Below are positions 2,944 through 27,166 of a stretch of DNA of 29,129 nucleotides, piece by piece. The number at the start of each line of letters is the position of its first letter. Positions within the stretch are counted from its first letter, which is position 1. The stretch lies in the IMG/VR virus record IMGVR_UViG_3300017613_003336, positions 1 through 29,129 of that record, one strand, 5' to 3'. The translations under genes and the position numbers were made by a program. The notes under the pieces are model-generated. The model ran no database searches. It saw only the letters and a program-made list of their open reading frames with translations, and had not been told where the DNA came from. The DNA comes from a virus.

Positions 2944-3612
2944 GTGAGTTTTAAGATCAAGGCCGTTCCTATAGGGATTCTCATAATGCTTCCAGCTCTT
3001 CTCTTTTCTCAGAATGAAGGAAATAGATCTATTGGTGGAGAATTTAGATTAGCGAGTTTGTATTACCAAAAGTCTGCCCTCGGCGTTAGAAAGGATATTG
3101 ATCTGGGATTTGCGTTTAATTATCTGAAAATTCTCTCCCCCCTTTATCATTCTGATAGCATTCAAGTACGAGACCGTCACATCAATACTCAATCTGCTTC
3201 ATCATTTGGGTTTGGAGCCTTCATAGGGATATCAGGTTATTACCATAACACAGATTCAATAATACAACATGGTACGAATCTCTTTTTCGGGCCAGTTGTG
3301 AGGTATTACACTTCGAAGATCCTGTTTCTTGAAGGCAAATGTTCCATGCAATATAATGCTTATAAGGTTGAGATTGCGGATCCCACATCTGGCAATTATT
3401 TGTATTACCCTATTACTAAAACTATAGATCTAAACTTGGAAATGGGAGTAGGTGCAAAGATTAGATTGACGAACAATGTCTTTTTTGAACCAATTCTATC
3501 GTATCAACGATCATGGGAGAATATCTATATAAATCAGGATGGTTTATTAAAATCTCCGAATAAACGAGCCCATAGTATAGTTTTAAGCATGAGGTTTCAA
3601 TTTTACTATTGA
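2944..3612 (+). CDS. outer-membrane beta-barrel-like protein (cargo)
   Basis: A 222-residue protein with a signal peptide: Lys-rich start, hydrophobic core IGILIMLPALLF, and a likely cut after LFSQ or nearby (about residue 23). The mature part is a series of alternating hydrophobic/polar strands separated by polar turns and ends in an aromatic strand (VLSMRFQFYY), the C-terminal pattern of outer-membrane barrels. The start used is GTG at 2944, giving the complete signal peptide; an ATG at 2986 would delete the basic part. It overlaps the next gene by one base (TGATG). Composition is AT-richer than the phage genes on both sides. This fits host-surface cargo (lysogenic conversion) rather than a virion gene; the exact role is unknown. 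Confidence 0.65.
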   Translation: MSFKIKAVPIGILIMLPALLFSQNEGNRSIGGEFRLASLYYQKSALGVRKDIDLGFAFNYLKILSPLYHSDSIQVRDRHINTQSASSFGFGAFIGISGYYHNTDSIIQHGTNLFFGPVVRYYTSKILFLEGKCSMQYNAYKVEIADPTSGNYLYYPITKTIDLNLEMGVGAKIRLTNNVFFEPILSYQRSWENIYINQDGLLKSPNKRAHSIVLSMRFQFYY

Positions 3613-4223
3613 TGGAACTTATCCAGTATAGAGCTCTTAGTATATTTGTGATAGTGTTAATCACCACTCTCCATGTAGATGCGCAGAGTATCACTGAGAT
3701 TCGACGAGGCTCTTTTGCTTTAGGTGGTGATGTTGGTCTTCAGCTAAAAAGCATTGAATATGAGTCCTCAAACCACAGTGAGATAAGTTCTTCTGGCAAT
3801 CTGAAATTTGGATGCTTCATTTCCCCGTATGATTTGATAATGATTCGACCAGGGTATTCTTATGAGCGATCAAGTAGGATTGGTTCTAACTGGTTTGATA
3901 GCAGAATATCCTTTGGAATGGTCATCACTTATCGAAGGTATTTTGGCACCTCCTTGTTTTCTGGTCTATATGTTGGTGGTGATTATGTCAGAAATTGGTA
4001 TGAACACTCATCTTCTCCAACGGTGGACTACGACAAGGCTATAAAAGCTGGAGCCGAAATTGGTTATACGTATTTCCTAAAACCAAATGTTGGAATTGAA
4101 GCATCAATGTTTTTTGAAATGAGTCAGATTGGAATTGAGAGAGGAACTATTGAGTACTATACTTTTATTCAGGGGGGAGTTAATATTGGCTTTTTGTACT
4201 TATTTAAACTTCGAAAACTTTAA
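3612..4223 (+). CDS. outer-membrane beta-barrel-like protein (cargo)
   Basis: A 203-residue exported protein with a signal peptide ending in VDAQ (about residues 20-25), a common processing site in Bacteroidota. It continues with glycine- and aromatic-rich beta strands (FALGGDVGLQL; YRRYFGTSLFSGLYVGGDYV; IGYTYFLKPNVGIEASMFF) and ends in INIGFLYLF-type strands. It resembles the porin-family small barrel proteins common in Bacteroidota. It starts at the ATG at 3612, overlapping the stop of the previous barrel gene, so the two are probably made together and may be diverged relatives. Function unknown. Confidence 0.65.
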   Translation: MELIQYRALSIFVIVLITTLHVDAQSITEIRRGSFALGGDVGLQLKSIEYESSNHSEISSSGNLKFGCFISPYDLIMIRPGYSYERSSRIGSNWFDSRISFGMVITYRRYFGTSLFSGLYVGGDYVRNWYEHSSSPTVDYDKAIKAGAEIGYTYFLKPNVGIEASMFFEMSQIGIERGTIEYYTFIQGGVNIGFLYLFKLRKL

Positions 4224-4226
4224 ATT

Positions 4227-5567
4227 ATGTGGATACTAAATAACAAAAATAAATCGTCTTTTTTAATAGCCTTTGCTTTCATTATCTCTTTAAGCTCAAT
4301 CGAGTTGAAGGCAGGTGACTTTGAAGTGCATGATTATACTATACCATGTACTTGCTACCCGAATGACTTTTACACTAATTACAATGCTATTGAAGTAACC
4401 GATATTGCTGGTACATATGAGGTTTATGAATTTCGAATTGTAGAATTGGGTGGTGATTTGAACGTCTCTAGTGCACTTATCGATATTGAGAATGGCGACT
4501 GGTTCTGGGACCCGTATCATAAAGGTCTTGGTGCTACTGAACTAACTGATGGTATTAGTGAGAAGATCGGACTAAAAGTAACGGTTGCTAAAAATAATAT
4601 TGCACCACCAGGGGCTTATCGGAACTATAAGTTGCAATATAAAGTAAAAGATATAAATCACAATTGGAGTGATTGGATAGATACGGAAGTGTTTACTGTA
4701 TCGGTAGCGGAAGTTCCTATTACAACAAACACACCCGGTGTAGTATGCACCACTAGTCGACCCTATTCTATTTCCCCTCCCACAGGATATTCCTCATCTT
4801 GGTCGTTCAGCCCTTCCAGCATGGTGACATCTTCATCGGGATCCGGTACATCAGCATCCTTAACGGGATCATGCAATGGCATTGGAGATGGGACTCTCAC
4901 TTTTACAATGACTAAGGCTTCTTGTCCTACTTTAACAACATCAAGAACAATAATGGTTAACGGGCCGAATCATGCCGATTTGGAAATGAAAGCCTATTAC
5001 ACAAACGGTAATCCTGCACCTAAAGGTGGATCAACCTACTTGCTATGCCCTAATACCCATTACCATATTTATTTAGATAATGATATCAGCTATAGCTGCG
5101 GGGTGTCAAATCTAACGTGGACTATACCTGCGGGATGGACGAAAAATTATCAATCATCTAACATGATTTCTATTTATACAAATTCATCTCCAGGTGGTCA
5201 GGTAATAGTGAAAGGGCAGACTTGCTGTAGTGGATGTGGATCAAATATGTCGCTGTTAACAGGATATTTTGGAACCTACTACAGTTGTGGAGGTTATTAT
5301 ATGGCCTCTCCTAATCCAGGATCAGAATATATTGATATCGATTTTACACCAGAAGCTGCAGAAATGAAATCGACAAGTTCATCGTTGGATTTGGAGATAA
5401 GATTAGTAGACAAGATGGGAACGGTCATTAGCATTGAGAATGTGAACAGCTTTCCACATAGGATAAACGCTAGTAAACTACCCGAGGGGAATTACATTGT
5501 GCTAGTAAGGGATAAGAAGGTCAACAGTAAAACTTACGATTCAGTTAAAATTCTAATAGAACACTAA
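4227..5567 (+). CDS. secreted protein with T9SS C-terminal sorting domain (cargo)
   Basis: A 446-residue exported protein. Residues 1-30 are a signal peptide (Lys/Asn-rich start, FLIAFAFIISLSS core). The middle contains Ig/PKD-like beta domains rich in Ser, Thr, Gly and Cys (about 165-250 and 255-345). The last ~90 residues start with SPNPGSEYIDIDF and continue through LVDKMGTVISIENV and LPEGNYIVLV, matching the Por-type sorting domain (type A) that sends proteins through the type IX secretion system. Multiple Cys residues (C-x-C-type pairs at CCSGC) suggest disulfides. It follows the two barrel genes with a three-base gap and is followed by a terminator. T9SS occurs in Bacteroidota, so this is strong evidence for the host group. 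Role is probably at the cell surface; adhesion or exclusion is inference. Confidence 0.75.
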   Translation: MWILNNKNKSSFLIAFAFIISLSSIELKAGDFEVHDYTIPCTCYPNDFYTNYNAIEVTDIAGTYEVYEFRIVELGGDLNVSSALIDIENGDWFWDPYHKGLGATELTDGISEKIGLKVTVAKNNIAPPGAYRNYKLQYKVKDINHNWSDWIDTEVFTVSVAEVPITTNTPGVVCTTSRPYSISPPTGYSSSWSFSPSSMVTSSSGSGTSASLTGSCNGIGDGTLTFTMTKASCPTLTTSRTIMVNGPNHADLEMKAYYTNGNPAPKGGSTYLLCPNTHYHIYLDNDISYSCGVSNLTWTIPAGWTKNYQSSNMISIYTNSSPGGQVIVKGQTCCSGCGSNMSLLTGYFGTYYSCGGYYMASPNPGSEYIDIDFTPEAAEMKSTSSSLDLEIRLVDKMGTVISIENVNSFPHRINASKLPEGNYIVLVRDKKVNSKTYDSVKILIEH

Positions 5568-7262: not shown

Positions 7263-8204
7263 ATGTCGAGAAAAGCTTTACGAATACAGCCACAGCTCAG
7301 CAATCTGCTTGTTGATCGGCTATTTATGACCAGGGAGGCACTGATGGAGGTGCTCACTGAAATGCATTTTGGGGATCCTAAATCATACTACAGTGAAGAT
7401 ACCCCGAGCTATCAGGATAATGTTGCAAAGCTCTCTGAGGATCTTTCCTCAGATGAGATTTCACTGACCTCTAGTTTCAATGAGACCGATATCCCGGATG
7501 ACTCAATAGCCCTTCATGTGATAAAAGGCACCATCCGGGCCGACTACTCCAGATGGTGGTTCTCGACCAAACAGTTTATTGATGATATCCGCTCAGCTGA
7601 GAAGAATCCGCAGATCATTGCGCATTTATTTTTCATCAATTCTGGAGGAGGAGAAGCCTGGTACCTGGAGAAAGCTTTAAAGGCTGTTCAGGAGCTGAGC
7701 AAACCGGTAGTGGCTTTTGTAGAGAAGCGTTGCTGCAGTGCGGCCTATTATATAGGGTGTGGTGCCGGCAGGATCTATTCCACCTCGATCAATGATACAG
7801 TTGGTAGTATTGGTACCATGGTAGCCTTCCTGGATATCATTCCCTGGTTTGAGAAAATGGGAGCCAAGTGGATTGAGGAATATGCCAACCAAAGTAAACT
7901 GAAGAACAAACGATTTAACGATCTACTCGATGGAAAACCAAAAAAGTACAAAGAAAAGGAGCTCGATCCCCTCGCCGCACAGTTCATTGACGCAGTCCGT
8001 GGTGCACGGGATCCCCTTGCTAAGCTCCCCGAGGGCCACGATGTCTTCGCCGGAGATTCATATAGCTCAGAAGAGGGCCAACCCCATGGACTGATCGACG
8101 AGATAGCGGATCTGGATGTGGCCCTTCAGTACACCCTGGAGCAGGGCAAGAGCTGGAAAGAAAAAGTTGAACAACGAAACCGAATGCAAACCTATATCGA
8201 TTAA
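7263..8204 (+). CDS. S49 family (SppA-like) prohead protease
   Basis: A 313-residue peptidase of the ClpP/SppA (S49) fold. Residues 85-210 hold the core: a strand HVIKGTI, then HLFFINSGGGEA (oxyanion-side glycine turn, about 121-132). The catalytic Ser is at about 159 in CCSAAYYI, followed by the GSIG turn at 181-184. A lysine at 212 or 214 (QSKLKNKRF) is placed where phage S49 enzymes keep the general base. There is no signal peptide, as expected for a cytoplasmic assembly protease rather than host SppA. It lies directly upstream of the major capsid gene and probably removes the scaffold-like N-terminus of that protein during prohead maturation. First gene of the unit driven by late promoter 1. 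Confidence 0.88.
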   Translation: MSRKALRIQPQLSNLLVDRLFMTREALMEVLTEMHFGDPKSYYSEDTPSYQDNVAKLSEDLSSDEISLTSSFNETDIPDDSIALHVIKGTIRADYSRWWFSTKQFIDDIRSAEKNPQIIAHLFFINSGGGEAWYLEKALKAVQELSKPVVAFVEKRCCSAAYYIGCGAGRIYSTSINDTVGSIGTMVAFLDIIPWFEKMGAKWIEEYANQSKLKNKRFNDLLDGKPKKYKEKELDPLAAQFIDAVRGARDPLAKLPEGHDVFAGDSYSSEEGQPHGLIDEIADLDVALQYTLEQGKSWKEKVEQRNRMQTYID

Positions 8205-8205
8205 A

Positions 8206-10218
8206 ATGAAAAAATTCGCATTACAATTCAAAGCTATCCTGGATGAGCTTAAGCTGGCTGATAAGGCCAAGGCTGGTGAGCTTTCCGAAAAGGACTGGAA
8301 AAAGATCGCTGAGGCTTACCAAGCTAAGTACGAGAGCGATTTCTACGAGGACCAGAAAAAAGCAGAAGCTGAGGAAGAGCACGGCTTGATCCACAGTGCT
8401 GCTTTGGACCTACTCAACGATGAGGGTGACGATGGTACCGGTGCCGGATCATCCACTACAGATCCACCTGAAGAAACAGCTGATCAGAAGGAGGCCAGGG
8501 AGAAGTTGGAAGCATCAAATAAGAAGGCCAAGGAGCTGGAGAAGAAAAACAAGTCATTGACCGAGAAGGTGGCGGCCCTGGAGGCCGACCCGGAGGGTGA
8601 TGATCCGGATACCGTGACCATCAAGGAAGGACAGCTGAGCCTTGCGACCACGGAAAAGCATCTGTTCGGTATTGATTCCGATATGTTCTCCATGGAGAAC
8701 CGCTGGAACCAGGTCACCGCAAACCCGGCTTATGCATCTCTTAACCCGGTGGATGAGGCGCAGGATGGTAGTAAGTTCCGTTCTGCAGTAGAGGGCTACG
8801 CCGCCTCCTTAGCCAATCGGTGGAAAGAGCTTCATAATTCCGGAAAGATGGCTAACCTTATTAAAGGTGCAGCACTAGATGTTGGGTACTCTGACCTGAA
8901 CGATGCCGGACTGGGCAAACAGTTTGTAGTCCGCCGGCAGGATGAGCTGATCGCCAGGATCATGAAGGTTCCCACTGTCTATGACATTTTCCCCAGGCGT
9001 TACGGAGTACAGGACCGTGAGTTGATCACCAATGCTTTCTTGGGAGAATTCTCTCAGGCATATCAGGCAGGTGAGGTTTGGAAAGGTACTGTTGATCTGC
9101 AGCCTGAGGTTGGTCATGTGGACGATGCCATGTACAAGACCCTTTTCAATTCAATGAAATGGATCGAGCGTCAGTACATCGGTTATCTGAACAGTGAAGG
9201 ATCTGATGATATTAAATGGTCGATGATCGAGTGGATGGTCCTCAGGATCGCCACCGTCCTGGTCAATGAGCAGAGCAAGCGCCGTATCATGGGTCATTAC
9301 ATCAAGCCGGTTACCGGTACTGCAGGAAATTACCTGTTTGCCTCCACCGGTGTGATCCATACCCTGATCAGGCACTTCCACGAGAACAAACTGCTTCCAT
9401 TGGACAACGCTGCATACAACACTTACACCAGTACCTCCACGACTTTTGTGGATGCTGTTGATCTGTTCCTAGCTGATGCACTTGCCGCGCGAGGTAGCCT
9501 TGATGGCTATGCCCTTCACCTGAATAAGAACCATAAGAACTGGTACAAAGCTTCAGTGCGGACTAAGTATGGTACTCATTTTGACTTCACCGGGCCCAAA
9601 GAGGACTTAGTCGTTGATTGGGATCTACCCATCAAGTGGGTTCCTAATATGAAGCAGAGCAAGATGATGATCCTGCAGCAGCCTGGAAATATCCAGTGTC
9701 TGGAGTTTGTTCCAGGTGAGATGCTTAAGATTGGATTCCAGCCTGAGATGGAGAGCGTGAAGAGCTGGTCCAAGTGGAAAGAAGGAGTATCTCCTGCATT
9801 TTCCGGTAAGAAGTTCGATAGCCTCGTACTGCTGACCGCGAATGATTATGATCTTCAGGAGATCTTCATCAACAAGCCCGCTACTGCCCTGGCGGCTGAT
9901 GCCACCACCGCAGACGCTGCTGTCAACAACTGGTTCAAGACCATTGCAAATACCGGAGCCACTGTTCTCACCACTATCTCTAACGCCATTGTAGGTGAAG
10001 TATATATCCTTGAGAATGGTAGTACCACCAATGATACAACCATTGCAGCCAGTGGAGATTTCAGCGAGCTTAGCGCTGCATATACACCGACCGCCGTTGG
10101 TGATTACATCAAGCTGTACTATGATGGTACTAAATTCCATGATCTGGAGCGCTGTGTAGGAGGTACCCGTACCATCGTTTCCACACTGCAACCTAATATC
10201 CAGGGGGCCACACGATAG
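8206..10218 (+). CDS. major capsid protein with fused N-terminal scaffold domain
   Basis: A 670-residue protein starting one base after the protease stop; a 30-codon longer frame reading back into the protease gene is a shadow. Residues 1-150 are charged and helical, with an acidic Gly/Ser/Thr linker (70-90) and a heptad coiled coil (about 90-128, EKLEASNKKAKELEKKNKSL). They look like a scaffolding or delta domain. From about residue 165 (MENRWNQVTANP) to the end is a globular mixed alpha/beta region with Trp-rich segments and a Thr/Ala-rich C-terminal beta part. No separate scaffold gene is seen, and the adjacent S49 protease supports a processed capsid precursor with HK97-type logic. The fold is inferred from context and size, not from a clear motif. 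A terminator follows. Confidence 0.78.
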   Translation: MKKFALQFKAILDELKLADKAKAGELSEKDWKKIAEAYQAKYESDFYEDQKKAEAEEEHGLIHSAALDLLNDEGDDGTGAGSSTTDPPEETADQKEAREKLEASNKKAKELEKKNKSLTEKVAALEADPEGDDPDTVTIKEGQLSLATTEKHLFGIDSDMFSMENRWNQVTANPAYASLNPVDEAQDGSKFRSAVEGYAASLANRWKELHNSGKMANLIKGAALDVGYSDLNDAGLGKQFVVRRQDELIARIMKVPTVYDIFPRRYGVQDRELITNAFLGEFSQAYQAGEVWKGTVDLQPEVGHVDDAMYKTLFNSMKWIERQYIGYLNSEGSDDIKWSMIEWMVLRIATVLVNEQSKRRIMGHYIKPVTGTAGNYLFASTGVIHTLIRHFHENKLLPLDNAAYNTYTSTSTTFVDAVDLFLADALAARGSLDGYALHLNKNHKNWYKASVRTKYGTHFDFTGPKEDLVVDWDLPIKWVPNMKQSKMMILQQPGNIQCLEFVPGEMLKIGFQPEMESVKSWSKWKEGVSPAFSGKKFDSLVLLTANDYDLQEIFINKPATALAADATTADAAVNNWFKTIANTGATVLTTISNAIVGEVYILENGSTTNDTTIAASGDFSELSAAYTPTAVGDYIKLYYDGTKFHDLERCVGGTRTIVSTLQPNIQGATR

Positions 10219-10295: not shown

Positions 10296-11315
10296 ATGAA
10301 AAAGCAAAACGAAAAACAGAAAGCGTACTCAGCCCGGCAGATAGCCTGGGCAGGCGCACAAACACGCAACCGGTTGCTCTTTGGCATGGTTGGGATCCTC
10401 GCCCTGGTGTTGATAGGATTCGCGGTAATCAATCCAGATATAGTAGATATAGTCTCGGCCCTGGGAATTTCAGGAGGGGGAGCCACCTTAGCAACTATGG
10501 CCGGCATAGGTAATGTTGCTGGTGTTACAGACCAGTATACTGCAGGAAATCAGATTGCCTACCGGGTATGGTTGGTACATGTAAGCCAGATCGATCCTGA
10601 TCAGACCTATCCAGCACCCAACAGTAGCCGCGAAGTTGGTACGATACCCTTACTTACGGGTGAGTACATGCACTACTTCGAGGCGATCGATGGAACACCG
10701 AAAGATAATTCCACGGGCGAGAAGGGTGAGCTGACCACTGAGGTGACCAACACGTTTGGATTTACCATGGGTGGAGATACCGCTAAGCTGTATGACTTTA
10801 TTGAGCAGTATGCTGGTGGACGATTCGTAATTATCTACCAGAAATGCTCTACAGGAGACTACTCTGTGGTTGGAACCAATTGCAAGCCTATGATCCTTCA
10901 GAGCTTCGATCGTAAGAGGGATAATGAGGCAACAGCTGTTGCGTTCACTTTCCAGAACAAGACGTTCAAACAGCCATACACTTACGTAGGATCGATTACC
11001 AGGACCACTCCACAGACAGTTGCTGCAGGAGCTACTGATCTGGCCATCGTGGCAGGGAAGGACCAGTATCAGCTGAGCGATCACACCGCTTCGGTTGCAC
11101 TGGCCACCACCTCTGGTATCACTTCTGCAATGTATGGGAACAACATCGAGGTGTTGGGATCGGGTGGAACCAATCCTCCGACCATTGCAGATAACACCGT
11201 GTTTATTCTGATTGATGGGACTACATGGACCGCTAATGCAGGATCGAAGATCTCCTTCAGGATCCATGATGATGCGACCCTGGTTGAGATCGAAGGTACC
11301 CGGGTACAGACCTGA
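10296..11315 (+). CDS. putative major tail-tube-like structural protein
   Basis: A 339-residue protein starting at the ATG at 10296; an upstream GTG in frame lies before the terminator hairpin. It has a basic N-terminus (residues 1-28), one hydrophobic helix (about 29-46, GMVGILALVLIGFAVINP), a glycine-rich linker, and then a beta-rich domain from about 78 to 339. The core includes YMHYFEAID, KLYDFIEQYAGGRF and TFQNKTFKQPYTYVG. Strand-helix-strand order, position after the capsid gene and before a frameshifted gene pair suggest the major tail tube subunit. I see no diagnostic motif, so this is inference. Residues ~11-339 are paralogous to the N-terminal third of the protein encoded at 24470. 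The membrane-like helix in a virion protein is unusual. A terminator follows. Confidence 0.6.
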   Translation: MKKQNEKQKAYSARQIAWAGAQTRNRLLFGMVGILALVLIGFAVINPDIVDIVSALGISGGGATLATMAGIGNVAGVTDQYTAGNQIAYRVWLVHVSQIDPDQTYPAPNSSREVGTIPLLTGEYMHYFEAIDGTPKDNSTGEKGELTTEVTNTFGFTMGGDTAKLYDFIEQYAGGRFVIIYQKCSTGDYSVVGTNCKPMILQSFDRKRDNEATAVAFTFQNKTFKQPYTYVGSITRTTPQTVAAGATDLAIVAGKDQYQLSDHTASVALATTSGITSAMYGNNIEVLGSGGTNPPTIADNTVFILIDGTTWTANAGSKISFRIHDDATLVEIEGTRVQT

Positions 11316-20328: not shown

Positions 20329-20413
20329 TTCAGATCGGTTTTTGCTTCCGTAATGTTTTTGTACCTTGGATATACTTATTTATTTAATATCTGAAACAGA
20401 CATTCCACACATC

Positions 20414-21376
20414 ATGATAAGCGATTTCAAACCTGATTTTTATTGGATGCTAAGAGAAGCCAAAGGACTATATCCATGGGTAACCAATTCCCCACACAGA
20501 TTATTAAGGATCATGAGTTCATGGCATAGAAACCATTTCTTGTATTTTGAAGAAGATGGAAATAGCTTAGCTAGAACATTTATTACTGAACAGATTTTCA
20601 GAAATCAGTTGATAGATCTGTTTGTAAAGGCGTTAGTGAGAGCAGAAATTAGGTTCATTAGCAGGTATGTACCACAAAGAAGCCATGAAGAGAGATTAAC
20701 TGGGAGTCTCGTCTCAGAAATTGATAGTTCATTGTTTCTGATAAAAAAACAGATCAAAGAGAAATCACTTGAGATGTATGATGAACCAAAAACAATCGAT
20801 TTCTTCTACAAAGATCTATCCAGGGGTGGTAAAATTGAAAAAAACACTGGTGCTGATTTGGAATTTATACTAGTACTGGATTTACCTGATTATCCATTTA
20901 CAATAAGAAGTATTGTGCTTCAAGCTAAGAAGATCAGTAGTTCTGCTCAATTGGACATGCGACAATACGAAACTCTTTTGGAAAATAACGATGATGACTG
21001 TGCTTACTTATTTTATGATACGAATCTTAAAACTCTAACTTCTCCTATCATTTTAGGGCTTGAGGACTATGACTTGAAAAAGAATTATGAAAAGGCGAAG
21101 AGTAAAGGAAGCTCCTCCTTTTCAATCAAATATAAGGATATTCTAGACGGCAAACCACTCTCGCTTTTTATTTACAAGAGTCTATTTGAATCTTTCTATG
21201 GGAGGACTCATCATAGTTTCAAGAATGCCCTCGAGTACTTTGATAACCTAATGTATAGAGATAAGAGAATGATCCATGATGAGGATAGTTTTAATGGAAG
21301 ACTTGGTATCATCTCCATAGGCAAAAGCATTTCCTACTCTATCGTTAATAATGAGGTTCTATCACTTGATATCTAG
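20414..21376 (+). CDS. PD-(D/E)XK nuclease-like cargo protein
   Basis: A 320-residue protein starting at ATG 20414; an in-frame TTG at 20366 is a weaker start. The core reads NTGADLEFILVLD (Asp148), then SIVLQAKKI (Gln170, Lys172). That gives a D...QxK signature as in Mrr-like/PD-(D/E)XK nucleases, with a possible N-terminal helix acid (Glu102 in GSLVSEI). This is followed by a helix with QYETLLE and a strand CAYLFYDTN. It is much more AT-rich than the flanking tail genes and has its own downstream terminator, so it is a cargo gene (moron). The GAD...QAK pattern is reminiscent of DUF6615-like proteins seen in defence contexts. Exclusion of competing phages is a reasonable guess, not shown. 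No promoter of the late type precedes it. Confidence 0.6.
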   Translation: MISDFKPDFYWMLREAKGLYPWVTNSPHRLLRIMSSWHRNHFLYFEEDGNSLARTFITEQIFRNQLIDLFVKALVRAEIRFISRYVPQRSHEERLTGSLVSEIDSSLFLIKKQIKEKSLEMYDEPKTIDFFYKDLSRGGKIEKNTGADLEFILVLDLPDYPFTIRSIVLQAKKISSSAQLDMRQYETLLENNDDDCAYLFYDTNLKTLTSPIILGLEDYDLKKNYEKAKSKGSSSFSIKYKDILDGKPLSLFIYKSLFESFYGRTHHSFKNALEYFDNLMYRDKRMIHDEDSFNGRLGIISIGKSISYSIVNNEVLSLDI

Positions 21377-21476: not shown

Positions 21477-21853
21477 TGGACCACTCCACCGAGGTCCTGG
21501 ACGACACTGCAGAGAAGTTGCTGAAGCAACAGCGTGGGATCCTTTCAACTTACTATAATCGCCGCACCGGCACCCTTCAATCACACCTTCAGTCTCATCC
21601 TTTTCATGTGAAGAAGAGTTCAGCCGGAGCTGACCTGGTAATTGATTACCTGGCACAGATCCGTTTCATGGATCTTCGAAAAACCGTCAAGGGCAAAAAC
21701 AAGAAGATCTACCACCCCATCTATAACAAGCCGCTATACGGATTCCTGTTTGGCTACGCATATTATCGGTTGCGAATGGGTCTCCTGGAATATCTCAGAC
21801 AGGAAACAACGGCTAAGGTTGACACCATCCACATAGTAATACCAGCATCATGA
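21440..21853 (+). CDS. neck/tail protein upstream of tape measure, 137 aa
   Basis: A 137-residue protein whose ATG lies in the loop of the preceding terminator; the first 10 codons encode MLTEQYKKGL from the hairpin's 3' arm. A TTG at 21476 is an alternative start. The sequence RRTGTLQSHLQSHPFHVKK followed by ADLVIDYLAQIRFMDLRK, and an aromatic helix YGFLFGYAYYRLRMGLLEYL, resembles HK97 gp10-like neck proteins (RTG...L motif then strands). It overlaps the tape-measure start by four bases. Function by position and pattern only. Confidence 0.6.
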   Translation: MLTEQYKKGLSFLDHSTEVLDDTAEKLLKQQRGILSTYYNRRTGTLQSHLQSHPFHVKKSSAGADLVIDYLAQIRFMDLRKTVKGKNKKIYHPIYNKPLYGFLFGYAYYRLRMGLLEYLRQETTAKVDTIHIVIPAS

Positions 21854-24396
21854 GCCTTAAGAAAGATATAATCGAAGCCGAATTCCGGACTACCGGTGCA
21901 AACAAATTGCAGAACGATATCGGAGCAACCACAGGGGAGATAAAGCGGCTGAATAAGGAGAATGATATGCTCCTGATCAATAAGAAGAAGCTGGAAGCCC
22001 AGGGGAAGAAGAACACTAAAGGGTGGAAGGAGCTGACAGCTGAGATCAATAAGAACAAAGAGGCCATAAATAATGGGAAAATCAAGTTGGATGAGTTGAA
22101 AAGCAAGCTCAAACTAACTGAGATGTCAGCCAAGCAACTGCTGGTCGAAAAGCGCAACCTTACCAGGGAGTTGAACAATACTTCCAAGGCCCTGAATCCA
22201 AAGAAGTGGAATGAGCTGAACGGCAAGCTAAAGAAAGTAACCACCCAATATGACAAAGTACGGGTAGGTGGCCGGGGGGTGAATAGTGTGATGCAGAAGA
22301 TGGGGGCGCTATTACCTGTAGTAGGCTTTGCTGCCCTGTTAGCAGGCGGAAAGAGACTATTGGCAAATATCATAGAAGTGAGGAAGGGATTTGAGAAGTA
22401 TGAGGCCATGCTGAAGGTCTCCCTGGGTACCCAGCGTGCTGCTCGGAGGGAAATGAAAATGCTGGCTGATTTTGCTGCAGAGACACCTTTTCAGATTGAT
22501 GGCCTGACTGATTCATTTGTAAAGCTAACCAACCAGGGGTTTAAGCCAAACAGGGAGGAGATGACTAAGCTGGGAGATCTTACTGCCGCCATGGGAAAAG
22601 ATTTCGATCAGCTGACAGAAGCAATAATTGATGCCCAGACTGGTGAGTTTGAACGCCTGAAGGAGTTTGGGATCCGGGCCTCCAAACAGGGCGACCAGGT
22701 GAAATTTACCTTCAGAGAGATTGAGACACAAGTGGGTTTCACTGCCTCTGAGATCCGGAAGTATATCCTTGGTCTGGGTGAGATGGAAGGGATCTCCGGA
22801 AGCATGGCAGAGATCTCAGGTACTCTTGGTGGCCGGATATCAAACCTGGGTGATGCCTGGGATTCATTAATGAATACTATGGGACAAAGATCCTCCGGGA
22901 TTATGGTTTCTATTATAAATTGGAGCATCGATGTAGTAAATGGTCTCCAGATGGTCTCTAAGAGCATCAAACAGATCAAACAGGATGTGATGGATGATCT
23001 GACATCTCAGAACCTTCAAAAGGGCCTCGTTGAAATAGATGATATCATGCAGGGGCTGGTTAGGCGTGGTGTTGAACAGGCACGAGCTGAGAAAAGAGCT
23101 GTCGCGTTATATATACAATCCATGGACACCCGGATAAAAGAAACCCGGAAAGCCCTGGATATGGCAACAGTAGAAGAGCAAGAGTTCCTGCAAAAGAAGC
23201 TCGATCTATTGGTCAATGAAAAGCAGGCTATCCAGGATCATTTCTTTGAGGTGGCTCAGCTGGAGAAGAAAGAGCGTGAAGCATACCTGACGCAGTATGA
23301 AAAGGAGCAGGAGGAGAAGAGGAAGAAGGAGGTAAAGGCCAGAGAAAAAGCCAAAAAGGCAGCCCTGGAGATGAACGCAATCCTCCATGAGGAAGAGATG
23401 AATCAACTCAAGCAGCAACTTCTGGATAATGAGATCACGCAGCAGGAGTACGAGGATTTAATCCTAAATCAAAAAATTGCCTCTCTGGAATTAGAGATGG
23501 AGATCCGGCGCCAGGCAGGCGAAGAGGTGATAGCCATTCAGAACCAGATTCTGGATCTTGAGATAGGGTATATAAATAGACTGGCTGCTGAACAGGAGAA
23601 AGCCCGGAAAGAGCAAGCAAAAAAGGATAAGGAGGCTGCAGAGAAGAAGAAAGAAGAGGATGAAAAGGCCCTTGCTGAGCAAATAGAAGTATATAATGAA
23701 AAGGTATTTTATTTCTCAGATGTTGCCGCTGAACTGGGACAAGCAATGGCCGATGCGATTACATCCGGTGATGATGTTATGGGAGAGCTCTTGCGTAAGT
23801 CACTTCTAGTGGCCTTAAAATACCTTCGTGATTTTGCCCGGGCAAAAATACTAGCATTGTCACTGGCCGGTGCTGACAGCGTGGCCACTTTTGGAGTTGC
23901 GGGTATTGCAAAAGCTGCAGCCCTTACTGCCTTGGTTGAAACTGCATATGGTGTAGCTAAAGCGGCACTCACCAAGAAAGCCGATACCAAGCAATTATAC
24001 TCCGGCGGCCCAACCGGCCTGGGTGGAAAGTATGAGCCGGCAGGGATTGTTCATAAAAACGAGTATGTGATTCCGGAGGAGGGCTTTTTTAATCCAGCTC
24101 TACGACCATTCATCAATTTGATAGAAGAGGCCCGTCGCGCCGGCAGCCTCAGATCCCTGAACATGAACCAACCCGCTCAGCGGGGATTTGCAGAAGGAGG
24201 ACCAACCACCCAGATGGCCTTCCCCCAACAAGCTGGAACGGATCCCGGAATGATTAGCCTTCTGGAAGCTAACATTGCATTCCTGCGACAGCTAAGCGAA
24301 CAGGGGGTATATGCCTATATCGGCGATCCTCAAGTTCGTGATATCCGCGATCGCACCAAGAAAATTGAGGCTATCGAGCTGAGTGTCTCAAAGTAA
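21850..24396 (+). CDS. tail length tape measure protein
   Basis: An 848-residue protein. Residues 20-135 form long coiled coils, and a hydrophobic segment is at about 151-176 (MGALLPVVGFAALLAG). The tape-measure core at about 200-335 contains FAAETPFQIDGLTDSF, MGKDFDQLTEAIIDAQTGEFERLKEFGI and MAEISGTLGGRISNLGDAWDSLM, classic for the family. A very long charged coiled coil follows (about 385-620, Lys/Glu/Gln-rich). A second hydrophobic helical region (about 640-710) comes next. The C-terminus has the GGPTGLGGKYEPAGIVHKNEYVIPEE pattern common to tape measures. About 850 residues would suit a tail of roughly 120-130 nm by the usual 0.15 nm per residue rule. The presence of a tape measure places the phage among long-tailed types; no sheath gene is visible, suggesting a siphovirus-like tail. 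Confidence 0.9.
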   Translation: MSLKKDIIEAEFRTTGANKLQNDIGATTGEIKRLNKENDMLLINKKKLEAQGKKNTKGWKELTAEINKNKEAINNGKIKLDELKSKLKLTEMSAKQLLVEKRNLTRELNNTSKALNPKKWNELNGKLKKVTTQYDKVRVGGRGVNSVMQKMGALLPVVGFAALLAGGKRLLANIIEVRKGFEKYEAMLKVSLGTQRAARREMKMLADFAAETPFQIDGLTDSFVKLTNQGFKPNREEMTKLGDLTAAMGKDFDQLTEAIIDAQTGEFERLKEFGIRASKQGDQVKFTFREIETQVGFTASEIRKYILGLGEMEGISGSMAEISGTLGGRISNLGDAWDSLMNTMGQRSSGIMVSIINWSIDVVNGLQMVSKSIKQIKQDVMDDLTSQNLQKGLVEIDDIMQGLVRRGVEQARAEKRAVALYIQSMDTRIKETRKALDMATVEEQEFLQKKLDLLVNEKQAIQDHFFEVAQLEKKEREAYLTQYEKEQEEKRKKEVKAREKAKKAALEMNAILHEEEMNQLKQQLLDNEITQQEYEDLILNQKIASLELEMEIRRQAGEEVIAIQNQILDLEIGYINRLAAEQEKARKEQAKKDKEAAEKKKEEDEKALAEQIEVYNEKVFYFSDVAAELGQAMADAITSGDDVMGELLRKSLLVALKYLRDFARAKILALSLAGADSVATFGVAGIAKAAALTALVETAYGVAKAALTKKADTKQLYSGGPTGLGGKYEPAGIVHKNEYVIPEEGFFNPALRPFINLIEEARRAGSLRSLNMNQPAQRGFAEGGPTTQMAFPQQAGTDPGMISLLEANIAFLRQLSEQGVYAYIGDPQVRDIRDRTKKIEAIELSVSK

Positions 24397-24469: not shown

Positions 24470-27166
24470 ATGGTGCCCGCGGATCCATATCGTTCAAAAC
24501 CATTTAAGCGCCCCAATAATAAGCAAGTGGTGTACTCGGCCAGAAAGGTTGTCTGGGCGAAGGCGATGCTCAAAAATCAGTTTGTCCTCTGCATGACAGG
24601 GCTATTTCTTTTCCTATTGATCGGATTCGCAATCATCCATCCTGATCTCGTTGACCTGGTTTCTGTTATTGGATTAGGTGGGGGAGGACTTCACCTGGCT
24701 TATTTGGGTTTTATTGGCAACATCATCGGGGTAACCGATAGATACACTGCCGGCAACCAGATCGCCTACAAGGTTTGGCTAACTGAAGCAAGCCAGGTTG
24801 ATGAAACACAGGAATTCCCCTCTCCAAATGTTAATCGCGAAGTAGGAACTGTCCCCTTAAAACTTGGAGAGTACATGCACTACTTCGAGGCCATCGACGG
24901 CACCCCGAAGGATAACTCAACCGGCGAGAAAACGGAATTGAGCACGGATGTGACCAACTCCTTAAGTTTTGCGATGGGTGGAGATGGGTCAAAGCTCTAC
25001 GATTTCATAGAACAGTATGCCGGTGGCCGCTTCATTGTAATCTACCAGAACAGCTCCACAGGAAAGTACAGTATTATGGGCTCCTGGAATAAACCCATGA
25101 TCTTGCAAGACCTTGATCGAAAAAGAGACAATGAAGCAACGGCGGTCACCTTCACCTTTCAGAACAAATCCTTCTCACAACCATATGTATATGTTGGCGC
25201 CATAGTAAATACTATACCACAAACCGTGGCCGCAGGTGCAACCGAACTCACCATTGTTGCTGGTAAAAGTCAGTATCAACTTACTGATCATACAAGCCAA
25301 GCCATTTTAGATGGCGTGTCTGGTATTGGCGCTGATGTGTATGGAAATAGTATAGAAATAATAGGATCTGGTGGTAGTTATCCGGCTCTGTTATTAAGTA
25401 ATTCGGTGTTTATTCTTATTGACGGAGATCCTTGGATAGGATTTTATGGTTCTAAAATTGGATTTCGAATTCATGACGATGATACACTTGTTGAAATACC
25501 TGGGACCCGTGTTTTACTTGATGACGCTGGTGGGGCAGCTCCTTCGTATCCTTTAGCTCGTAATACCGACATAGTACTTGGAGGGGGGTATGTTGATGTT
25601 GTCGATACTGGCGGTGCAGATTTCAATACAGACACATCGGGCGGCCGCTGGTATTTGCTTAATTCAAAGGAGAGTAGAATCAGGCAAAATGGCAGTTTAA
25701 CTAAAGTTAAGATGTATATACCCAATACCGCGGACTGGGGTGATGTTACTGATTACTTGCTTCAGGTGTGGAGAAAGGACGGATCAACTTATGATTTAGT
25801 AAATGAGCAAAGCATCTTTTCCTCCCTAAGTATAAATCAAATCAACGAAGTTTCTTTGAGTCCTGCCATTGCTGTTCAGGAGGGTGATTACTTAGCTTTA
25901 GGTATAACTAGTGTTGGTAAGGCAGACTCTGTGGCTTATGGGTTAATTGGATATGCGTTAGGGGTAAGATACAAGAGTGCTCCGGCACCAGGGAGTGTGG
26001 ATTTCGATTGGGACGCACAAGCCTCCTCTGGATATATTATACCAGCCCAGGTTTATATGCAGGCTCCTTTGATGGTTGGGATAGGGGATTCTATAATGGC
26101 TGGGCACACAGACCATTTTTCATTTATTGAGAGTAATCAAACGACGGATATTGCCAACCAAATAATGTACCAGCTCTCTCAGATTGATTCGAGTATTGTG
26201 TATCAAAATATGGGGATTGGTGCGCAGGAAGCTGCAGAGATTCTGGCAAGGTTTGATAAGGATGTTGTCGCTTTAAAACCTCGGTATGCTGTTATTATGG
26301 CGGGGGTGAACGATCTGGCCAACGGAACGACTAAGTCAGAGTACATCGCCAGTATGACGAGCATGCTTTATAAATGCAATTCGAATGGGATAATACCTGT
26401 TGTTATTAAGATACTTCCGTGGACAAATGGCACAAACACCCAAATGCAAAACAGAGACAATTGGATGGTTGATCTGAAAGCTTTGGTGGTCAACAGGCGG
26501 GGATTGTTTGTGGATTGTGACGAGTCTGTTGGGGTGTATAGAGCGGGGGGTGATCCTGGAAATTATTGGAATCAACAACCCGCTTTAAATGATGATAATG
26601 TGCATTGGAATGAAGCTGGTGATGAAAAAATAGCTCGATGTGTTTTTACAGAGTTATTGAATGTAGACACGGCTGAAGGATATGGTCCGGAACTAAATAC
26701 TCTCGCTAATGCTGTTAGCATTCCAAATGAAACAGATGCTACAACTGGATGGAGTCAGCAGCATTTGGATGTAGGCGCGAATGTTTTTGAAAGTATCTTA
26801 TTAGATGGAGAGTTAGTATTTCATGCGAATGCTGATGATACACCAACTTCAGCGGCTCGGTTCTTAATAGATTTGGAGACAATGTTTGGAATACAGAATG
26901 GGGATGAGTGTAGATTAATATTATCAAAAAGGGGGAAGGGGACGGGTGCTGGAACCGGGCAATGGGACTCTGTTTTAGATGATGCAGTAAACGGATCAGG
27001 AGGAATCGTTGTAGCAAGTGTGGATAAATCCGATACTACTTTTCAGGCCTTTAAACATGAGTGGGTTCATGACGCGAATCATCGGTATCTGGTTATTAGG
27101 GAATCTAACTCCGAGAATGATGGCGGGGTATATTTTGACGCTTTCTCATTAAGGAAAAAACTCTGA
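24470..27166 (+). CDS. tail-tube paralogue fused to SGNH hydrolase, 898 aa
   Basis: Residues 1-350 repeat the whole tube-like protein of 10296 (basic N-terminus, hydrophobic helix, then shared blocks GVTDxYTAGNQIAY, YMHYFEAIDGTPKDNSTGEK and KLYDFIEQYAGGRF). Residues 350-530 look like a beta-sandwich (TGGADFNTDTSGGRWYLL, EGDYLALGI). Residues 535-735 are an SGNH/GDSL hydrolase: GIGDSIM (Ser541), NMGIG (Gly582), GVND (Asn614) and DNVHWN (Asp709, His712), so all four blocks are present. Residues 735-898 are another beta-rich, possibly carbohydrate-binding part. Codons become AT-richer from about residue 275 onward. It has its own late promoter. It probably displays an esterase/deacetylase on the tail for a host surface glycan; the substrate is unknown. 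Confidence 0.8.
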   Translation: MVPADPYRSKPFKRPNNKQVVYSARKVVWAKAMLKNQFVLCMTGLFLFLLIGFAIIHPDLVDLVSVIGLGGGGLHLAYLGFIGNIIGVTDRYTAGNQIAYKVWLTEASQVDETQEFPSPNVNREVGTVPLKLGEYMHYFEAIDGTPKDNSTGEKTELSTDVTNSLSFAMGGDGSKLYDFIEQYAGGRFIVIYQNSSTGKYSIMGSWNKPMILQDLDRKRDNEATAVTFTFQNKSFSQPYVYVGAIVNTIPQTVAAGATELTIVAGKSQYQLTDHTSQAILDGVSGIGADVYGNSIEIIGSGGSYPALLLSNSVFILIDGDPWIGFYGSKIGFRIHDDDTLVEIPGTRVLLDDAGGAAPSYPLARNTDIVLGGGYVDVVDTGGADFNTDTSGGRWYLLNSKESRIRQNGSLTKVKMYIPNTADWGDVTDYLLQVWRKDGSTYDLVNEQSIFSSLSINQINEVSLSPAIAVQEGDYLALGITSVGKADSVAYGLIGYALGVRYKSAPAPGSVDFDWDAQASSGYIIPAQVYMQAPLMVGIGDSIMAGHTDHFSFIESNQTTDIANQIMYQLSQIDSSIVYQNMGIGAQEAAEILARFDKDVVALKPRYAVIMAGVNDLANGTTKSEYIASMTSMLYKCNSNGIIPVVIKILPWTNGTNTQMQNRDNWMVDLKALVVNRRGLFVDCDESVGVYRAGGDPGNYWNQQPALNDDNVHWNEAGDEKIARCVFTELLNVDTAEGYGPELNTLANAVSIPNETDATTGWSQQHLDVGANVFESILLDGELVFHANADDTPTSAARFLIDLETMFGIQNGDECRLILSKRGKGTGAGTGQWDSVLDDAVNGSGGIVVASVDKSDTTFQAFKHEWVHDANHRYLVIRESNSENDGGVYFDAFSLRKKL

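Follow-up and report, generated by a model that had tools for sequence, protein, structure and literature searches.

We analyzed the whole of a 29,129-base virus record, which we call the window. It contains two copies of a tail-tube-like gene, and the second copy is fused to a predicted esterase of the SGNH family. We think it probable that this duplicate moved behind the tape-measure gene and became a tail anchor for a glycan-active enzyme. The placement of the fusion in the virion, its copy number and position there, its catalysis, and its substrate are parts of this proposal that we infer.

This is a virus of Bacteroidales-type bacteria, and part of its tail probably carries enzymes that strip ester groups off host surface sugars. 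Bacteroidota cells have variable, often modified polysaccharide coats, and how phages breach them is poorly known. If a tube paralogue does anchor an enzyme, six or more enzymes could surround the tail, and there would be a testable path by which a duplicated gene gains a new function in the tail. In addition, phrog_19897, a family so far unnamed, is likely to be the protein that forms the tail tube in Duneviridae-like phages.

The fusion protein and its domains

The fusion gene (24470-27166; like all features below with a stated strand, on the plus strand) starts with ATG and encodes 898 residues in one open frame without an internal stop. It is a separate in-frame gene, 13 kb downstream of copy 1 (10296-11315, plus strand; 339 residues). 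The preliminary description held that its first ~350 residues are a diverged copy of the copy 1 product, and this was borne out. Fusion residues 12 to 348 (24503-25513) align without gaps to the 339-residue product of 10296-11312, with 217 of 337 positions identical (64%; E = 3e-162). A chance similarity is ruled out by this E value and gapless identity. Differences between the copies at the first, second, and third codon positions are 0.26, 0.19, and 0.66 in the tube part and 0.47, 0.25, and 0.68 in the N-terminal 68 codons. Because they peak at the third position throughout, both copies have been maintained as protein, including the N-terminal helix.

An AlphaFold2 model of copy 1, built from 21 relatives, had a mean pLDDT of 73.8. 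When aligned with VIA-align, its residues 86 to 237 matched the monocin tube protein MttP (8qhs, Z 8.2), 80alpha (6v8i, 8.2), NF5 (9m7c, 8.1), and lambda gpV (7t4f, 7.9), as well as the SPP1 tail tube and Hcp (overall Z 7 to 8.4). Fusion residues 96 to 248 (24755-25213) matched the same structure entries with Z 7.9 to 8.7, and the matches to MttP, 80alpha, SPP1, lambda gpV, and Hcp span Z 7.5 to 8.8. For both copies, nearly all rows were tail tubes or Hcp, with Z of ~7 to 8.8 over ~100 to 122 residues, although Z of ~8 is a range where common folds score too. Foldseek on copy 1 returned the same families with weak E values, and BFVD matches include named tail-tube proteins. The sequence libraries matched the N-terminal part only to phrog_19897, of unknown function. 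Therefore, the two N-terminal regions are structurally similar, and both model as a tail-tube/Hcp fold, a beta sandwich that has a helix at its flank and a long loop. However, the two models are not fully independent, because most of their alignment rows are common to both.

Copy 1 lies directly after the likely major capsid protein gene (8116-10218, plus strand), which has a weak profile match and synteny with an annotated major capsid protein. Because related Bacteroidota phages have the same arrangement, we regard copy 1 as likely to be the tube protein, with the fusion carrying a second copy. Fold model and gene order together make it very probable that copy 1 is the major tail-tube protein. 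Its homologues follow head-maturation protease and capsid genes in Porphyromonas, Flavobacterium, Cellulophaga, and Bacteroides phages, in which they are annotated as hypothetical or "holin". The label "holin" on the homologue of Bacteroides phage BT-TP2 (PQ571279.1, 9727-10533; L032) is probably a misannotation.

The tube fold of the fusion is followed by a C-terminal beta domain (about residues 248 to 348; 25211-25513), which matches 24qj with Z 8.3. The last 100 residues of the copy 1 model resemble a tailspike domain (Z 8.9). As a separate observation, the last ~100 positions of the tube profile (11001-11312 in the window) weakly match the capsid protein C terminus (L032, L036-L038, L043, L045; whole-sequence E 6e-4 to 6e-3). 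This suggests that tube and capsid may have one beta domain in common as surface decoration.

The GDSL/SGNH hydrolase domain occupies residues 538 to 718 (26081-26623). It matches PF13472 (E = 2.1e-13; 51.6 bits against a cutoff of 32.9), the phrog_6102 lipase family (2e-12), and the PDB entries 4rsh, 3p94, and 4iyj. A full SGNH set had been described here. Ser541 in GDSI (block I; codon 26090-26092), Asn614 in GVND (block III; codon 26309-26311), and Asp709 and His712 in DNVH (block V; codons 26594-26605) are indeed where that description put them. However, Gly582 lies three residues upstream of the block II position, which falls on Ala585, next to Gly584, in an alignment with 3p94 ("DRGISGQT" over "NMGIGAQE"). 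The wording "full set" therefore seems slightly overstated. In the same alignment, 4rsh likewise has no Gly at this position. In SGNH enzymes the oxyanion is normally contacted through a main-chain NH, so alanine at block II need not abolish the predicted activity. The C-terminal two thirds of the full-length fusion model is of low confidence, with pLDDT under 50 in the SGNH part, and for that reason we kept this model out of claims on SGNH structure.

Two modules of unknown family flank the hydrolase, residues 349 to 534 (25514-26071) and residues 736 to 898 (26675-27163). Neither residues 349 to 534 nor residues 735 to 898 matched a family in the Pfam search, and these two regions and the SGNH part had no similarity to any open reading frame (ORF) of the fetched relatives. 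A peptide scan of viral contigs found no relatives of the C-terminal 550 residues, and against phages and plasmids these residues gave SGNH-level matches only. The hydrolase had been described as lying between beta-rich domains. This holds for residues 248 to 348, a beta domain at high pLDDT, but residues 349 to 534 and 735 to 898 have low-confidence models with some strands, from which a beta-rich character is plausible. The last module is possibly glycan binding, as judged from its sequence.

Gene order and second copies in relatives

The tape-measure gene (21850-24396, plus strand; phrog_26804, 3e-55; phrog_1716, 5e-43) is directly upstream of the fusion. Thus, copy 1 after the capsid gene and copy 2 after the tape measure are both within the structural module. 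A near relative with a second tube copy is a prophage (G016) in the Bacteroidales MAG RS_7_37. Its genes come in the same order as in the window (protease, capsid, tube, terminase, portal, tape measure), and the second copy (L049:17173-18090) follows. This copy has 306 residues, begins ~60 bases after the tape measure, and lacks both the N-terminal helix and an enzyme. However, the gene next to it (L049/L050, contig C2, 71105-73615) encodes an 837-residue protein with Laminin_G_3 and polysaccharide lyase 14 (PL14) matches, both above the cutoff (44.7 bits against 27 for PL14). A second tube copy beside a PL14 gene supports the anchor proposal. What counts against it is that this is the only other genome with a second copy and that the enzyme is not fused there.

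Second copies are rare. Scans of 15 viral and 4 phage records for copy 1 gave one match each, and among 16 further records only G016 had a second copy (1/16). In all, ~30 other records have a single tube copy. We found no further second copies among the viral contigs searched, and, apart from G016 itself, searches of its order (393 genomes), family (28), and phylum (395) yielded none either. A tape-measure scan for additional neighborhoods found nothing.

The window is a virus record of metagenomic origin that has no end repeats at least 20 bases long, and its second copy has evolved at an accelerated rate. The arrangement could then be an assembly chimera, or the duplicate could be functionless and decaying. 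We regard this as very improbable. An assembly chimera is disfavored by the independent MAG contig of G016, which has a second copy at the same place. Decay is hard to reconcile with 898 open codons, an excess of third-position changes, and the retention of 35 of 39 key residues.

In the trees, one well-supported clade contains the second copies together with the first copies from the window, from G016, and from two short contigs. Because they sit in the same clade as those first copies, the duplication is recent compared with the family as a whole. Joining both second copies by constraint gave no rejection (p-AU 0.30), and in the unconstrained tree the two window copies pair with weak support (50/91). 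The trees are compatible with either one or two duplications. The second copies have branch lengths of 0.42 and 1.03 versus 0.07 for first copies, and they keep 35/39 and 30/39 of the residues that are invariant in first copies. As judged from these sequence comparisons, the second copies appear constrained in fold and changed in role.

Distal-tail genes lie directly after the tape measure in many siphophages. Copy 2 might accordingly be an essential tube-end protein, either a tip initiator or a Dit-like adaptor from tube to tip, that carries the esterase incidentally. Its position fits, and tube-fold chains of baseplates (phage Mu, 80alpha, and Pa193) were among the structural matches. However, ~30 relatives manage without a second copy. 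In most of those for which this region was retrieved, a conserved protein of ~670 residues is encoded next after the tape measure, and G016 has kept a homologue of it ~12 kb further on. These findings make an accessory ring more likely than an adaptor that is new and essential, and we consider the tube-end explanation unlikely. Because G016 retains this tip protein, copy 2 seems to add to the tip and not to replace part of it. Between the tape measure and the tip genes there is thus an added block made up of the second tube copy, enzymes, and lysis-type genes, and the window stops before the place where tip genes are expected.

The N-terminal hydrophobic helix

First copies of this clade and the second copy of the window begin with a helix of ~40 residues that contains a strongly hydrophobic stretch (KD19 2.2 to 2.9) preceded by basic residues. 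The preliminary description had overlooked it. The conserved starting helix lies within 10296-10500 and 24503-24707 in the window and is found in relatives L003-L039. In the fusion, the hydrophobic part is at about residues 38 to 56 (24581-24637; KD19 2.77). Neither the Duneviridae homologues nor the second copy of G016 has this helix. These shorter forms start at a Met that is conserved inside the longer proteins (M68; present in 20/21 rows, with TTG in the second copy of the window). We looked for a consistent ribosome-binding site upstream of Met68 and did not find one. By its sequence, the segment resembles one for membrane insertion or export, which would not be expected of a tube that is assembled in the cytoplasm. 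It could be accounted for by removal of the segment, a second start at Met68, or a membrane step in assembly.

Such a helix after basic residues is odd for a virion tube and counts against the anchor proposal, as do the low-confidence SGNH model and the replaced block II Gly. The fusion might instead be a membrane-anchored enzyme that never enters the virion. Its helix would sit in the host inner membrane, and its tube-like and SGNH parts would lie outside, editing surface glycans or their precursors during infection or lysogeny, for example against superinfection. The strength of the helix (KD19 2.77), the basic stretch before it, and its retention after the duplication would suit this role. 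In addition, glycan-active proteins with signal peptides have been reported from Bacteroidota phages (PMC8776804), and the PL14 neighbor in G016 also has a signal-peptide-like start. However, copy 1 of nearly all of the clade has the same helix together with a tube position and fold, so the helix does not mark a nonvirion protein, and by itself it is no argument against a virion role of the fusion. Furthermore, the second copy of G016 is without it, the gene lies after the tape measure and before lysis-type genes, as fits structural genes, and a membrane anchor would leave the tube fold without a use. We consider this explanation fairly unlikely.

The proposed tail anchor and its setting

In our preferred explanation, the major tail-tube gene was duplicated, and one copy would have been relocated to just after the tape-measure gene and joined to an esterase-like enzyme. 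The tube domain of copy 2 would enter the tail, either in a single special ring at the tip or close to it, or as a minor shaft subunit. The C-terminal beta domain, the linker module, the SGNH hydrolase, and the last module would be held outside. At adsorption, the SGNH domain would strip ester groups, most likely O-acetyls, from the host surface polysaccharide, as SGNH receptor-binding proteins of other phages do. Gene position favors the tip, and analogy with the 936 TpeX and SPP1 gp17.1* proteins favors the shaft; both placements are possible. A search for virion proteomics on any family member found none. The preliminary description had a tube-like subunit bearing the enzyme outward on the tail or its tip. 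The tube/Hcp fold, the duplication, the attached SGNH domain, and the second copy next to a polysaccharide lyase in a relative agree with that picture, which remains partly conjectural.

Several known proteins resemble the fusion in part. In 936-group lactococcal phages, the TpeX extension of the major tail protein has a C-terminal glycan-directed module after an Ig-like decoration and binds host cells (PMC6669499). The fusion also places a C-terminal module, predicted to be glycan directed, on a tail-tube protein. However, TpeX comes from the one tube gene by programmed frameshift and adds a module for binding, whereas the window has a separate duplicated gene, in its own frame, with a hydrolase. 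The tube proteins lambda gpV and SPP1 gp17.1* have a C-terminal Ig-like domain (PMC8718954). Like the fusion, they have a beta domain of ~100 residues that comes after the tube fold and points outward, but they have no enzyme, no second copy, and no described N-terminal hydrophobic helix. Specialized (evolved) Hcp effectors, Hcp-ET, join a tube fold to a C-terminal enzyme domain, as the fusion does, and the type VI secretion system (T6SS) tube delivers toxins into cells (PMC8262886); for the fusion we suggest a phage tail and a glycan esterase instead.

Evolved Dit proteins of siphophages are tail-tip ring proteins with an inserted CBM (PMC6669499). The fusion similarly has an added module, predicted to be glycan directed, but its base is a recent tube duplicate and not a Dit. 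Its position would fit a Dit, yet the conserved protein usually encoded after the tape measure still has a homologue in G016. SGNH domains are common on receptor-binding proteins of Klebsiella prophages; two Klebsiella prophage SGNH proteins have esterase activity, and G7C gp63.1 deacetylates LPS (PMC13123978). The fusion would likewise be a phage tail protein with an SGNH domain, in its case a predicted one. However, those proteins are fibers or spikes with fiber anchors, whereas the anchor of the fusion is a tube paralogue. The post-capsid protein of Duneviridae and Porphyromonas phages (phrog_19897) is homologous to both tube parts, but it is single copy, has no enzyme, and is annotated as unknown, hypothetical, or "holin".

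Searches of the open-access literature gave no case of an esterase joined to a tail-tube paralogue. The use of a tube-gene duplicate as an SGNH anchor therefore appears to be new, whereas extensions that bear enzymes or bind glycans were already known on tube and tip proteins. The unusual receptor-module design claimed earlier is thus softened by the 936 extensions, the Hcp-enzyme fusions, and the SGNH receptor-binding proteins. A bolder idea, which we hold only tentatively and think somewhat doubtful, is that the duplicated tube protein of this clade is a dedicated docking ring for swappable glycan enzymes, with SGNH attached covalently in one phage and PL14 encoded next door in another.

Other genes of the window deserve brief mention. 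The product of 376-897 contains the stretch GGRDHSTILRG, which by eye resembles the DnaA C-terminal signature. Three ORFs at 2944-5567 have a G+C content of 0.38; two are outer-membrane-protein-like, and one has a weak T9SS sorting-domain match (TIGR04183, below the cutoff). These may be lysogenic-conversion cargo or host-derived genes. Within the tail genes, a 336-residue ORF (20366-21376) without a family match has a G+C content of 0.34 versus 0.45 for the window and looks like a moron gene. Finally, the 151-residue product of 28139-28594 matches phrog_1259 (baseplate hub and tail lysozyme, C-terminal part; 3e-23) and weakly CHAP, and it is likely an endolysin.
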